Below are positions 5,400 through 12,031 of a DNA stretch of 12,031 bases, piece after piece (position 1 is the stretch's first letter; every line of letters starts with the position of its first letter). Location: positions 1 through 12,031 of the forward strand of contig DAOVTF010000022.1 in the NCBI GenBank assembly GCA_030633225.1, in the 5' to 3' direction. The notes beneath the pieces are model-generated. The model searched no databases, was not told where the DNA came from, and worked only from the letters and a program-made list of their open reading frames with translations. The DNA comes from Flavobacteriaceae bacterium (GTDB taxonomy: Bacteria > Bacteroidota > Bacteroidia > Flavobacteriales > Flavobacteriaceae). A program made the translations under genes and the position numbers.

Positions 5400-6479
5400 T
5401 TAACTGTTAATAATATTCTCTTGATGTGCAATAGATTCTTGATGTATTGCTTTGAATATTTTTTCAATAAACTCTTTAGTCATACCTTGCTCTTCTCCTT
5501 TTTCAATTACTTTTTGCAAAATTTCTTGCCATCGTGTATTTTGTAAAACGGCTACATTACTTTCTTTTTTGGCTTTGCCAATATTCTCAACAATTTGCAT
5601 TCTTTCGGCAAGAGTTTCTAATAATTGATCGTCTTTTGCGTTTATTTCTTCACGTAAAGCATTTAATTTTGAGACAGATTCTTCTTTTTCAAATCTGGGC
5701 TTTCTCACCTTCAAATCATCCATTATCTCCATCAATCTTGCCGGTTTAATTTGCTGTTTAGCATCACTCCAAGCTTCATCTGGATTACAATGAGTCTCAA
5801 TCATTAAACCGTCAAATTTTAAATCTAACGCCGTTTGAGAAACGTCAAAAATCAATTCTCTATTTCCACAAATATGTGAAGGATCATTAATAATTGGTAA
5901 GGTTGGATATTTTGCTTTTAGATCAATTGGAATTTGCCAACTTGGAATATTTCTGTATTTTGATTTTCTAAAGGACGAGAATCCACGGTGAATGGCACCT
6001 AAATTTTTTACTCCCATTTTATAAAAACGCTCAATTGCACCCATCCAAAGCTCTAAATCTGGATTGATTGGATTTTTAACTAAAACAATCTTATCTGTAT
6101 CTCGAATAGCTTCAGCTATTTCCTGAACAGCAAAAGGGTTAACCGTAGTTCTAGCTCCAATCCATAAAATATCAATATCAAATTCTAAAGCTAGTTTCGC
6201 ATGTTGTGCATTGGCAATTTCAACCGCAGTTAACATACCTGTTTTTTCTTTTACTTTTTGTAACCAGGGTAAAGCTTTTGCACCATTTCCCTCGAACGTT
6301 CCAGGTCGAGTTCTTGGTTTCCAAACTCCTGCTCTAAAAATAGTAGCATCAGTATTTTTTAATTCTTGCGCAATTTCTAATACTTGTTCTTCTGATTCTG
6401 CACTACAAGGTCCTGCAATTACCAATGGATGGTTTAATTGCATATTATCTAACCATGTTCTAAAATTCTTGTTTTCCAT
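5400..6479 (-). CDS. Bifunctional 3-deoxy-7-phosphoheptulonate synthase / chorismate mutase
   Basis: This 359-residue fusion catalyses the first shikimate step (PEP + erythrose-4-phosphate to DAHP) and, in its C-terminal domain, chorismate to prephenate. The DAHP synthase part (about 15-260, type I-beta) shows IAGPCSAES (21-29), RAGVWKPRTRPGTFEG (49-64), KNP (135-137), HRGFS (164-168), NDPSH (198-202) and ETHCNPDEAWSD (228-239). Cys25, His202, Glu228 and Asp239 are the likely metal ligands. The chorismate mutase part (about 269-350) is an AroQ-type helical domain: LREEINAKDDQLLETLAERM, then IGKAKKES. In enzymes of this architecture the mutase domain often mediates feedback inhibition of the synthase, and DAHPS with C-terminal mutase is usual in Bacteroidota. 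It is the last gene of the operon, 8 bp after tyrA, and a terminator follows. Confidence 0.95.
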   Translation of the reverse strand: MENKNFRTWLDNMQLNHPLVIAGPCSAESEEQVLEIAQELKNTDATIFRAGVWKPRTRPGTFEGNGAKALPWLQKVKEKTGMLTAVEIANAQHAKLALEFDIDILWIGARTTVNPFAVQEIAEAIRDTDKIVLVKNPINPDLELWMGAIERFYKMGVKNLGAIHRGFSSFRKSKYRNIPSWQIPIDLKAKYPTLPIINDPSHICGNRELIFDVSQTALDLKFDGLMIETHCNPDEAWSDAKQQIKPARLMEIMDDLKVRKPRFEKEESVSKLNALREEINAKDDQLLETLAERMQIVENIGKAKKESNVAVLQNTRWQEILQKVIEKGEEQGMTKEFIEKIFKAIHQESIAHQENIINS

Positions 6480-6487
6480 CTTTTTAA

Positions 6488-7342
6488 TTAATTTTTAATA
6501 CCAGCTAAAACTTCCTTTATTCGATTTGTATTTTGCATTATTGCATAAACATCTTCTGCTGATTCATTCTCAATAATTTGTTTAAATTCCTTTAAGTTTT
6601 TAATATATTCATTTAATGATTTTAGTATAGATTCTTTATTTTGTAAAAATATTGGTGTCCATGTATCTGGATTACTTTTTGCTAACCTAACTGTTGAAGC
6701 GAAACCACTACCTGCCATATTAAAAATATTTTTTTCGTCATTTTCAATTTCTAATACAGTTTTTCCTAGCATAAATGAACTTATATGAGACAAATGCGAA
6801 ACATAGGCTATGTGAATATCATGTTGTTTAGCCGACTCCATATAAACATTTCGCATTTTTAACCCTTCAAATATTTTACTTGCCAGATCCACCATTTCTT
6901 TACTGCTTAAATGCTGCTCACAAATAATATTTACCTTATCACTAAATAGATCATAAATAGCAGCATCTGGTCCTGAAAATTCAGTTCCGGCAATTGGATG
7001 AAGTGCAACAAAATTTTTTCTTTTCGGATGATCTTTTACCGCTTCACAAACTGCAGCTTTAGTTGAACCAACATCAAATACTAAAGTATTATCATTAATC
7101 AGATCTAATACTTGATTTGTTAGTATTGGAGTAATATTTACAGGAACAGCAATAATCACAACATCAACTTCTTTTACAATGTTTATATCTGCTTTTTTAT
7201 AAATTATTCCAAGTTCTAATGCTCTTTTTAAGTGATCAGAGTTTTTATCAATTCCATAAATTGTTGCCCAAGAAGTTTTTTTTAGCTCTAAAGCTAAAGA
7301 ACCGCCAATCAATCCTAATCCGATAACTGCTATTTTTTTCAT
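6488..7342 (-). CDS. tyrA: Prephenate dehydrogenase
   Basis: TyrA oxidatively decarboxylates prephenate to 4-hydroxyphenylpyruvate, the committed step to tyrosine. Its 284 residues have an N-terminal Rossmann domain beginning KKIAVIGLGLIGGS with GLGLIGG (8-14) for NAD(P); the acidic residue IYGID at about 32 suggests NAD+. The conserved HPIAGTE (115-121) and the helical domain's DIHIAYVSHLSHISSF (175-190) carry the substrate-binding and catalytic His/Ser residues expected of the family. There is no fused chorismate mutase or ACT domain: the mutase is supplied by the next gene. The ATG overlaps the stop of the aminotransferase by 4 bp (ATGA type), so translation is probably coupled. Confidence 0.95.
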   Translation of the reverse strand: MKKIAVIGLGLIGGSLALELKKTSWATIYGIDKNSDHLKRALELGIIYKKADINIVKEVDVVIIAVPVNITPILTNQVLDLINDNTLVFDVGSTKAAVCEAVKDHPKRKNFVALHPIAGTEFSGPDAAIYDLFSDKVNIICEQHLSSKEMVDLASKIFEGLKMRNVYMESAKQHDIHIAYVSHLSHISSFMLGKTVLEIENDEKNIFNMAGSGFASTVRLAKSNPDTWTPIFLQNKESILKSLNEYIKNLKEFKQIIENESAEDVYAIMQNTNRIKEVLAGIKN

Positions 7343-8484
7343 GATACTCTACTTAAAACTTCCTTAATTTTACTTTCTTCAACACATAATGAGAAACGAA
7401 TGTAATCTTCTCCATTGGTTCCGAAAATTTTACCTGGCGCAATAAAAACATTATGTTTATAAAGTAAATCATCTGTTAAATCAATAGCTGATTTTCCTTT
7501 TGGAACTTTTGCCCAAACAAATAATCCAACACTATTTTTATCGTAACTGCAATCCAAAATATCGCAAATTTCCCATACAATTATTCGGCGAGAACGATAT
7601 ATATCGTTCATTTTTTTAAACCAAATTGAAGGTAGTTTTAATGCTGCAATAGCGCCTTGTTGAATTCCAAAATACATGCCAGAATCCATATTGCTTTTTA
7701 CTTGTAAAATTCTATTGATATTTTCTTTATTTCCTAAAACCATTCCCACTCTCCAGCCTGCCATATTAAAAGATTTGCTCAAAGAGTTTAATTCTATTGC
7801 AACATCTTTTGCTCCTTTAAAAGCTAATATACTTTTAGGATTATCATTTAAAACAAAGCTATACGGATTATCATTTACTATTAGAATATTGTGTTTTTTA
7901 GCAAAAGAAATTAGTGTTTCAAATAACTCGTCTGATGGATTTGCACCTGTAGGCATATGCGGATAATTAACCCACATTATTTTTACTTTTGACAAGTTGA
8001 GTTTTTCCAATTTATTAAAATCAGGAAACCAATTATTTTCTTCTTTTAAATCATAATAAACTGATTTTGCTTCTACCAAATTTGTAACTGATGTATAAGT
8101 TGGGTAACCTGGGTTTGGAATCAATACTTCATCCCCTACATTTAAAAATGCCATAGAAATATGTAAAATCCCTTCTTTTGACCCCATTAAAGGTAAAATA
8201 TCGGAATTAATATTTAAATCTACATGATAATGTTTTTTATAAAAATTAGATATTTCCTGACGAAATTCTGGCACTCCTTGATAACTCTGGTATCCATGAT
8301 TATTATTTTGACTTGAAGCATTATTTAATGCATTTACTACCTCAACTGGTGGTGGTAAATCCGGACTCCCAATTCCCAAATTTATTATAGGTTTTCCCTG
8401 AGAAATTAATTCTCTAACCTCCCTTAATTTTGTTGAGAAATAGTACTCTTTTACATTATTTAATCTATTCGCTGCATGTATCAT
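7339..8484 (-). CDS. Class I/II PLP-dependent aminotransferase of the aromatic pathway
   Basis: The 381-residue protein is a fold-type I aminotransferase. The PLP-binding Lys is K237 in SLSKSFNMAGWRVG (234-247). IGSPDLPPP (38-46), GYPTYTS (126-132), NYPHMPTGA (173-181, in place of the usual NPNNPTG), NDNPY (204-208) and the C-terminal YIRFS (361-365, whose Arg binds the substrate carboxylate) are present. Placed between pheA and tyrA with 4-bp overlaps on both sides, it very probably converts phenylpyruvate and 4-hydroxyphenylpyruvate to Phe and Tyr with glutamate. The sequence also resembles aspartate and LL-diaminopimelate aminotransferases, so specificity rests on context. Confidence 0.9.
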   Translation of the reverse strand: MIHAANRLNNVKEYYFSTKLREVRELISQGKPIINLGIGSPDLPPPVEVVNALNNASSQNNNHGYQSYQGVPEFRQEISNFYKKHYHVDLNINSDILPLMGSKEGILHISMAFLNVGDEVLIPNPGYPTYTSVTNLVEAKSVYYDLKEENNWFPDFNKLEKLNLSKVKIMWVNYPHMPTGANPSDELFETLISFAKKHNILIVNDNPYSFVLNDNPKSILAFKGAKDVAIELNSLSKSFNMAGWRVGMVLGNKENINRILQVKSNMDSGMYFGIQQGAIAALKLPSIWFKKMNDIYRSRRIIVWEICDILDCSYDKNSVGLFVWAKVPKGKSAIDLTDDLLYKHNVFIAPGKIFGTNGEDYIRFSLCVEESKIKEVLSRVS

Positions 8485-9323
8485 AACTGCAAAGAATTTT
8501 GATGATATTCTCCTAAAATTCTTAAATGGTTCACTTTTTTACCTATTAAATGCAAAGCGTTCTCATATAGTTTGAAATCATCTATAATTAAATCAATAAA
8601 AAATGCATAACTCCATGGTTTGTCAACTATTGGCATAGATTGAATCTTTGTCAAATTGATTTCATGTTTTGCAAAAATATCCAAAACCTCAGCTAAACTT
8701 CCCTTATTGTGCTTAGTAATAAATTTTATGGAAGCTTTATTTTTTTTACCATTCATTTTACTTTTATGATATGGGGTGTTTTTTCCTTTTTTTAAAATAA
8801 AAAATCTAGTTGAATTATGTTCATTTGTTTGAATATCGTCTTTAATAACTTCTAAATCAAATATTTTTGAAGCTTTTTTACTTGCTATTGTTGCAATTCC
8901 TTTAATATTTTTTTCTTTAATTCTTTTGGCAACTTCGGCAGTATCACTTTCTTCAACCAATTTTATATTCGGGTGATCTCTAAAAAACTTTCTACATTGT
9001 AAAAGTGCCATCGGATGTGACCAAACCTCTTTAATATCATCAAAATTTTGTCCTTTTAAAGCCATTAAATGATGATGTATATTTAAATAAATTTCGCCTT
9101 CTATGTTTAAATTATACTCATCTATTAAGGCATAATTTGGTAAAATTGCTCCTGCAATAGAGTTTTCAATTGCCATAACCGCACTGTCAACCGCTCCATT
9201 CTTAAGTAATTCAGGGATTTCTGTAAAGGATAAACATTCTTTTAAAATAATGCTTTTTCCAAAAAACTCTTCAGCCACAATGTGGTGAAATGATCCTTGT
9301 ATACCTTGAATTGCAATTTTCAT
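8481..9323 (-). CDS. pheA: Prephenate dehydratase with C-terminal ACT domain
   Basis: PheA converts prephenate to phenylpyruvate, the committed step to phenylalanine. The 280-residue protein has the catalytic domain at about 1-180: KIAIQGIQGSFHH (2-14), the AIENSIAG loop (51-58) and NSTRFFIL (170-177) with the catalytic Thr172-Arg173-Phe174 triad. The ACT domain at about 198-275 shows GSLAEVL (208-214) and KIQSMP (226-231) in place of the enterobacterial GALV and ESRP Phe-binding motifs; as I recall this variant is normal in Flavobacteria, so Phe feedback inhibition is still likely. No chorismate mutase is fused. It is the first gene of the operon. The ATG at 9321-9323 is 13 nt after the attenuator's T-tract, so transcription into it depends on readthrough of that terminator. 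The aminotransferase start overlaps its stop by 4 bp. Confidence 0.96.
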   Translation of the reverse strand: MKIAIQGIQGSFHHIVAEEFFGKSIILKECLSFTEIPELLKNGAVDSAVMAIENSIAGAILPNYALIDEYNLNIEGEIYLNIHHHLMALKGQNFDDIKEVWSHPMALLQCRKFFRDHPNIKLVEESDTAEVAKRIKEKNIKGIATIASKKASKIFDLEVIKDDIQTNEHNSTRFFILKKGKNTPYHKSKMNGKKNKASIKFITKHNKGSLAEVLDIFAKHEINLTKIQSMPIVDKPWSYAFFIDLIIDDFKLYENALHLIGKKVNHLRILGEYHQNSLQL

Positions 9324-9335
9324 TTAATTTGTTCT

Positions 9336-9365
9336 AAAAAAAAAGTCTCGAAAATTTTCGAGACT
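9336..9365 (-). terminator. Attenuator terminator upstream of pheA
   Basis: A perfect 22-bp palindrome (9344-9365) has arms AGTCTCGAA and TTCGAGACT around an AATT loop. On the minus strand it is followed by eight T (9336-9343). It stands in the sense direction directly before pheA and has no T-tract on the plus strand. Because it lies after the promoter and before the first gene, it can only act as a regulatory (attenuating) terminator. Confidence 0.92.
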
Positions 9366-9390
9366 CTTATGTTATATTTTGATATAATTT

Positions 9391-9465
9391 TTAAACACAC
9401 ATTGTCTCGCTTTTATTTAGAAAATAAAAGAAATAACGGCTAAAAAAATTATTTGTATTAATCAC
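9391..9465 (-). CDS. Phe/Tyr-rich leader peptide of the aromatic operon (pheL-like)
   Basis: This is a 24-codon open frame starting at GTG (9463-9465) and ending TAA (9391-9393). Codons 7-15 read F-F-S-R-Y-F-F-Y-F: five Phe and two Tyr in nine positions, encoding the two end products of the operon. It begins about 14 nt after the predicted transcription start, with a purine-rich AAGTAAAAAACA before the GTG. An in-frame TAA just upstream rules out a longer form, and no ATG in this frame precedes the aromatic run. The tail (LNKSETMCV) contains the AGC GAG ACA codons that form the antiterminator arm. The peptide itself is probably without function, as in enterobacterial PheL; its translation is the sensor. 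The composition could arise partly from AT-rich codons, but its placement between promoter and attenuator argues against chance. Confidence 0.8.
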   Translation of the reverse strand: MINTNNFFSRYFFYFLNKSETMCV

Positions 9466-9484
9466 TGTTTTTTACTTATGGCAG

Positions 9485-9514
9485 CAAATCTATAATTATA
9501 TTTTTTAATTCCAA
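9485..9514 (-). promoter_or_regulatory. Promoter of the aromatic operon and its leader
   Basis: On the minus strand TTG (9512-9514), exactly 19 nt, then TAGATTTG (9485-9492) is an ideal match to the Bacteroidota TTG-N19-TAnnTTTG promoter. Transcription should begin near 9478-9481, just before the GTG leader peptide. Confidence 0.82.
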
Positions 9515-11790: not shown

Positions 11791-12031
11791 ATGGACTTAC
11801 ATAAAATTTCTAAAATAAAACATCTCAACAGTAATAACTTCTTTTTATTAGCAGGGCCATGCGCTATGGAAGGTGAAGAAATGGCAATGCAAATTGCCGA
11901 AAAATGTGTAGAAATTACAAACAAACTAGAAATTCCATATATATTTAAAGGGAGTTTTAAAAAAGCCAACCGCTCAAGAATTGATAGTTTTACTGGAATT
12001 GGCGATGAAAAAGCTTTAAAGATCCTTGAAA
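11791..12031 (+). CDS. kdsA: 3-deoxy-8-phosphooctulonate synthase, N-terminal part, cut by window edge
   Basis: The ATG at 11791 opens a frame that continues past the window end, with 80 complete codons visible. KdsA condenses PEP with arabinose-5-phosphate to make Kdo-8-phosphate for the LPS inner core. The visible part has FFLLAGPCAMEG (17-28), IPYIFKGSFKKANRSRIDSF (48-67) and TGIGDEKALKIL (68-79), which are hallmark KdsA segments. The Cys in AGPC (C24) is the position that is Cys in metal-dependent KdsA (Aquifex type) and Asn in the E. coli metal-independent form, so a metallo-enzyme is predicted. It lies 42 bp after the porin stop. No terminator is visible between them, and a weak -7-like TATCTTTA at about 11769-11776 may serve as its promoter. 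Confidence 0.93.
   Translation, partial: MDLHKISKIKHLNSNNFFLLAGPCAMEGEEMAMQIAEKCVEITNKLEIPYIFKGSFKKANRSRIDSFTGIGDEKALKILE

Follow-up and report, generated by a model that had tools for sequence, protein, structure and literature searches.

The window, by which we mean the whole stretch of 12,031 nucleotides that was analysed, carries on its minus strand an operon for aromatic amino acid synthesis in the gene order pheA-aminotransferase-tyrA-DAHPS/CM, in which pheA, the aminotransferase gene and tyrA overlap by 4 bases each (Table 1). Among the four operon genes, the curated cut-off of NCBIfam is passed by the prephenate dehydrogenase alone, and the top NCBIfam models of pheA fall slightly below their cut-offs. 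The operon had earlier been described as pheA-tyrA-DAHPS/CM; these genes are indeed present, but the aminotransferase gene between pheA and tyrA had been missed. The order of the four genes is kept in 23 of the 24 genome-contig loci, and in the remaining one (L032) the sequence breaks off at a contig edge. On its other side, the leader is flanked by gldA, a divergent gene. At positions 11791-12030 there is also the start of an open frame that resembles by eye KDO-8-phosphate synthase (KdsA) and is cut by the window end.

Table 1. Features of the pheA operon and of its leader region, in positions of the window.
Feature	Position	Strand	Details
Promoter, presumed Bacteroidota type	9485..9514	-	TTG 9514-9512, 19 nt, TAGATTTG 9492-9485
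Leader peptide gene	9391..9465	-	MINTNNFFSRYFFYFLNKSETMCV; GTG at 9465, stop at 9391, 24 codons
Hairpin P1 within the peptide gene	9410..9430	-	CTTTTATTT (last aromatic codons) pairs with AAATAAAAG directly 5′ of arm A
Arm A (CGAGAC), antiterminator arm within the peptide gene	9404..9409	-	pairing and covariation
Inner antiterminator helix, predicted, extending A:B	9368..9399	-	TGTGTT (9399-9394) with AACATA (9373-9368)
Arm B	9357..9367	-	AGAGTCTCGAA; alternative partners A (antiterminator) or C (terminator)
Arm C and nine-T run completing the terminator	9336..9352	-	TTCGAGACTTT (9352-9342); nine-T run 9344-9336
pheA, prephenate dehydratase with ACT domain	8481..9323	-	Pfam PDT and ACT above cut-off
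Aminotransferase class I/II	7339..8484	-	Pfam above cut-off; 4-base overlap with pheA
tyrA, prephenate dehydrogenase	6488..7342	-	Pfam above cut-off; 4-base overlap with the aminotransferase gene
DAHP synthase/chorismate mutase fusion (DAHPS/CM)	5400..6479	-	both Pfam domains above cut-off; NCBIfam models below cut-off

The earlier note on this DNA had placed a promoter, a Phe/Tyr frame, a CGAGAC arm and a terminator in front of pheA, and all four were found in that order on the minus strand, from 9514 to 9336. The TTG-N19-TAGATTTG sequence is what we take to be a promoter of the Bacteroidota type, the consensus being assumed. A scan for sigma-70 promoters gave a single site at 9600-9571, compared with 3.9 expected by chance, and this site was set aside. 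In the leader frame, codons 7-15 hold seven Phe/Tyr, the core (FFSRYFFYF) has counterparts in relatives, and no Trp codon occurs in the window's leader peptide; its GTG start is shared with the leaders L005 and L008. The terminator ahead of pheA forms a hairpin at 9368-9341 followed by the T run, as had been claimed, but its distance from the ATG of pheA is 12 nt and not 13. A TATGTG-like motif lies 3′ of arm A, which may be a pause signal or, equally, part of the inner antiterminator helix. In the window, A:B together with the inner helix has a predicted energy of -11.3 kcal/mol, compared with -13.3 for the terminator hairpin, and the spacer that would form the inner helix has a folding z of -0.80 (mean -1.09 over 119 leaders).

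Because the DNA is T-rich, Phe/Tyr frames arise easily in it. Dinucleotide shuffles of the 16 same-genus regions yield frames containing five or more aromatics within 9 codons at a rate of 0.24; for seven or more, seven being the number that the window has, the rate is 0.006. Terminator-like sites number 2, compared with 0.1 expected in 551 bases, and the second of them is the same palindrome on the other strand. Moreover, the best pairing of the post-aromatic segment of the window with arm B is equalled by 0.24% of 5000 shuffles, and the whole leader folds with a z of -2.81, a stability that 4 of 200 shuffles also reach.

The searches detected a pheA homologue in 44/60 relatives, 102/120 family genomes and 128/148 phylum genomes (in the phylum by Pfam family), and 24 further loci came from the genome-contig set. 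Two of the homologues (G142:C6:99273-100088 and G078:C36:383-1201) contain one in-frame stop each, for which decay or assembly error is possible. L011, with only 44 nt upstream, and L021, at a contig edge, were removed beforehand, as were the duplicates L031, L037 and L038, which are identical to L002, L007 and L009. The survey consists of 174 regions, each with an upstream stretch of 130 nt or more, including the window and part of the phylum-search matches. The comparison among relatives that the earlier note had proposed came out in its favour: 155 of the 174 regions upstream of pheA homologues combine a frame rich in aromatic codons with a terminator and an arm A that matches, and both stems covary, as described below. 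By taxon, this full set is present in 143/148 regions in or near the same family, in 4/9 from other families of the order, in 8/10 from other orders of the class and in 0/7 from other classes of the phylum. The first of these groups comprises the same genus (16/16), the near genome-contig loci (5/5), Lutibacter and the other genome-contig loci (16/16), the family (95/100) and 11/11 family members from the phylum search. In the 155 leaders, the complementarity of arm A exceeds that of shuffles at p ≤ 0.05 in 131 and at p ≤ 0.01 in 81.

The set was not detected in 19 of the 174 regions, five of them in the family. Among these five, L030, L120 and L165 seem to be without it, L125 is truncated by the end of its contig, and the terminator of L155 lies as far out as -370, with a frame that may fall outside the stretch taken. 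Two side observations were made in the course of the survey. The pheA of L018 (G050), from another family of the order, is 62% identical to that of the window; in the relatives and family searches, no other genus from the window's own family came as close, and horizontal transfer is possible. The leader of L018 has GCCTCG arms. In several Lutibacter-like loci, an element of about 90 bases lies between the terminator and pheA; it is doubled in tandem in L042:1691-1869 and L047:4821-5000, where the copies are 74-81% alike, and seen by eye as a single copy in L039, L041, L043 and L050. A search of L040-L043, L047 and L050 gave 0 Rfam matches at the gathering score.

For the analysis of leader structure, a diverse set of 119 leaders was used (L001, L018-L030 and L055-L202 with arm A assigned, the same-genus and genome-contig loci being excluded); 117 of them remained after L157 and L195, whose frames are doubtful, were taken out. 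Alignment A1 has 107 rows, that is, the 119 without L157, L163, L179, L187, L195, L183-L186, L190, L201 and L202. The antiterminator A:B and the terminator B:C are mutually exclusive, and both covary. Since the shuffles leave relatedness in place, the following margins are not to be read as probabilities: in B:C, double changes occur at 8 of 9 pairs and in 85 cells against 8.2 in shuffles, and in A:B there are 67 double-change cells against 25.7. The score of A:B is 0.350 in register and 0.040-0.186 when slid by 1-3 columns. In the number of double-change pairs and in that of pair types, A:B stands no higher than shuffles (246 and 128 of 500 reach its values); these counts are lowered because arm A of the GGG group stands one column out of register in A1. 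When arm B is swapped between species, the A:B score falls from 17.29 to 13.35 ± 0.24 (n = 119), the highest of 5000 permutations being 14.13. An intrinsic terminator precedes the first structural gene, together with an exclusive antiterminator that has one arm within reach of the ribosome. If the terminator merely insulated pheA from stray upstream transcription, this would account for the presence of a strong intrinsic terminator but would leave the covariation of arm A without explanation. Since gldA is divergent, no upstream gene on the minus strand needs this terminator, and a promoter motif lies between gldA and the terminator, which makes such a role scarcely credible.

A short frame rich in codons for the products of the pathway is conserved in frame, that is, as a predicted leader peptide. 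In the 117 leaders, the last nine codons of the core are aromatic at a rate of 0.83 in frame, compared with 0.24 and 0.29 in the other two frames, and an in-frame start lies close 5′ of the core in 117/117 (116 ATG and one GTG). In the stretch from 70 nt ahead of the leader start to 20 nt past it, the motif TAnnTT[TA]G is present in 104/117, compared with 13% in base-shuffled stretches. Arm A starts a median of 11 nt past the last aromatic codon, with a standard deviation of 1.61 nt in place of 14.3 nt in shuffled segments, and within 7-14 nt of that codon in 114/117 (19% in shuffled segments); its spacing to arm B (5.2) and to the stop codon (6.5) is looser. These results can be set against the alternative of a structured 5′ UTR, in which a bistable A:B/B:C element senses a protein, a small molecule or temperature, and the peptide frame simply results from the T-richness of the DNA. 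A:B and B:C are RNA structures in themselves, and frames with five aromatics are frequent in shuffled regions, as given above; however, aromatics confined to one frame, a start codon in front of every core and an arm held more closely to the last aromatic codon than to its own pairing partner render this alternative very unlikely.

The end of the peptide also varies in a regular manner. Where arm B is GTCTCG, the peptide ends in E followed by T/A/M/I in 45/55 leaders and in xG(L/R/P) in 0/55; where arm B is GTCCCG, the corresponding figures are 3/23 and 17/23. The change of arm B from GTCTCG to GTCCCG is thus accompanied by a change of the peptide end, and therefore the peptide end follows the RNA arm. 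Such tracking would not be expected if the peptide acted in trans, or if it handed ribosomes to pheA by reinitiation and the terminator were incidental; in the window, moreover, the stop codon of the leader lies 67 nt 5′ of pheA, and the distance from stop codon to arm varies among leaders. According to the accessible text of two papers, the leader peptide peTrpL has been described as acting in trans (PMC7298713), and reinitiation at leader genes has been proposed (PMC4833913); at this locus both modes appear highly improbable.

How the ribosome would meet these arms was examined with an assumed footprint. The E. coli ribosome covers -12 to +15 around the P site, and this value was adopted, although that of Bacteroidota may differ. 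With this assumed footprint and the A-site on the last aromatic codon, arm A starts a median of 2 nt past the front edge in the 117 leaders; it lies at or past the edge in 104/117, and at most 2 nt inside it in 114/117. With the same assumption, half or more of arm A lies under a ribosome placed at the stop codon in 105/117. The earlier note had held that stalling in codons 7-13 frees arm A; this stands, but the range was too narrow, since with the assumed footprint a stall at codon 15 leaves arm A free too, and all codons 7-15 therefore qualify.

In folding before arm C is made, A:B has a mean probability of 0.84 over the 117 leaders when a ribosome sits on the last aromatic codon (window 0.99); without a ribosome the mean is 0.69, and the value exceeds 0.5 in 72% of the leaders (window 0.99). 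With the ribosome at the stop codon, the mean is 0.06 (window 0.00), in agreement with the earlier claim that arm A is then covered. The full RNA at equilibrium forms the terminator in all three ribosome states, with a mean P(B:C) of 0.89-0.93 (window 0.93). Equilibrium folding was therefore rejected as proof of the switch; the terminator is preferred whatever the ribosome does, so that a switch must be kinetic, through trapping of A:B. A kinetic choice is accepted for attenuators of this kind.

Because most of the related bacteria examined have the same arrangement in front of this operon, the aromatic leader before pheA is almost certainly a real, conserved and classical amino acid sensor. 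On the grounds of comparative sequence and modelled folding, it very probably works as a ribosome-mediated transcription attenuator. RNA polymerase would start roughly 10-18 nt before the GTG and then transcribe the peptide gene of 24 codons. Under a shortage of charged tRNA-Phe or tRNA-Tyr, the ribosome would stall in codons 7-15 with its front edge just short of arm A; A would then pair with B once B has been made, the terminator would be blocked, and pheA-aminotransferase-tyrA-DAHPS/CM would be transcribed. When the amino acids are plentiful, the ribosome would proceed to the stop codon and cover A, B would pair with C, and transcription would end near 9336. The choice between A:B and B:C would be made kinetically.

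Three further properties concern the range of the sensor and its untranslated state. Firstly, the cores of the 117 leaders contain 574 Phe, 335 Tyr and 63 Trp residues, and in the stretch running from the nearest start to the last aromatic codon Trp occurs in 78/117 leaders, inside the core in 62/117. Secondly, hairpin P1 is more stable than in codon shuffles, with a mean z of -1.64 and 64% of the 119 leaders below -1 (window -1.10). Its covariation is moderate, with 40 double-change cells against 27.3 in shuffles and 20% of cells unpaired; the covarying pairs and pair types of P1 do not exceed those of shuffles, and a version slid by -3 forms pairs equally often. Thirdly, folding of the 117 leaders and of the window gave no trp-type 1:2 stem that sequesters arm A in the untranslated leader: in the ribosome-free RNA that still lacks C, the mean probability of pairing between arm A and upstream sequence is 0.22 (window 0.00). 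Since no general stem hides arm A, the untranslated leader is predicted to read through. In the trp system of Escherichia coli, a stem shuts off untranslated leaders. A wider reading of these properties is a default-on aromatic sensor throughout the class, in which Phe, Tyr and, in most sampled lineages, Trp would be read for an operon that holds the first step of the shikimate pathway, a failed translation start would give readthrough for want of a shut-off stem, and the hairpin of the sensing codons would pace RNA polymerase or the ribosome. We put this wider reading forward tentatively, as possible but on balance rather doubtful.

Putative leaders of similar build lie elsewhere in the same genome. 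Before hisG, the his leader (L212, on C270) has the frame MKKITLHHHHIHICTQAN and a terminator, and ACTCAAGCG of this frame pairs over 9 bases with the 5′ arm of the terminator. His-rich frames (HHHHIH) precede hisG in this genome and in 6/6 others checked, and terminator-like stretches were seen by eye in those 6. Likewise, the trp leader before the anthranilate synthase gene (L219, on C109) has the frame MKIQKLNTWWWSLRKLSS and a terminator, with only a weak arm match, and Trp-rich frames (WWW) stand before this gene in the same genome and in 6/6 others checked.

The mechanism itself is textbook, and the points of interest are its breadth, the predicted sensing of three aromatic amino acids and the possible default-on wiring, which, if true, would invert what is taught from the trp operon of Escherichia coli. 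The outcome, for a large bacterial group, is a map with good support of how aromatic amino acid synthesis is regulated. The alignment is good enough for proposing an Rfam entry, and the tight spacing between arm and codons provides a natural measurement of the front edge of the ribosome in this group.

Comparative work by Vitreschak et al. in 2004 is said to have predicted leader-peptide attenuators of his, trp, phe and other operons in Proteobacteria, with some in Bacteroidetes/Chlorobi. For Flavobacterium psychrophilum, the accessible text of Guerin et al. 2021 (PMC9723704) reports strong clues that amino acid operons are preceded by leader-peptide attenuators, together with structured 5′ elements before pheA, hisG and others, which occur in other Flavobacteriaceae genera and have no Rfam hit. 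The guess of the earlier note that comparative studies may have predicted such a leader was thus right, in that a 5′ element of pheA in Flavobacteriaceae is listed there; the gene is the same, and for pheA neither a peptide nor arms nor covariation are given in that accessible text. A search that covered few subscription journals returned no other paper on the flavobacterial pheA leader. That is to say, a pheA leader element in Flavobacteriaceae is already known, and the particular instance is unreported in the literature found, as far as its accessible text goes. The new details are the Trp codons in most leaders, the hairpin inside the peptide gene and the lack of a general sequestering stem. 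In Bacteroides thetaiotaomicron, sORFs in long 5′ UTRs have been called reminiscent of attenuation leader peptides (PMC7366714); the example in the accessible text precedes a hypothetical gene and not an amino acid operon.

Among known systems, the PheL leader of Enterobacteria (Rfam RF01859, Phe_leader) likewise consists of an aromatic-rich leader peptide gene, an antiterminator and a terminator, with pheA as first gene. RF01859 matches over its full length but weakly, at 21.5 bits in the window (E 0.28), 34.3 in L176 and 30.9 in L132, all three below its gathering score of 55 bits, and no Rfam family matches the window at the gathering score. Weak Rfam matches to RcsR1, MicC and BSnc120 that overlap the terminator hairpin were ignored. 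PheL is rich in Phe, whereas the flavobacterial peptide mixes Phe with Tyr and, in most relatives, Trp. The flavobacterial leader also differs from PheL in lacking any general stem to sequester arm A in the untranslated state, and the operon behind it adds the aminotransferase gene, tyrA and DAHPS/CM.
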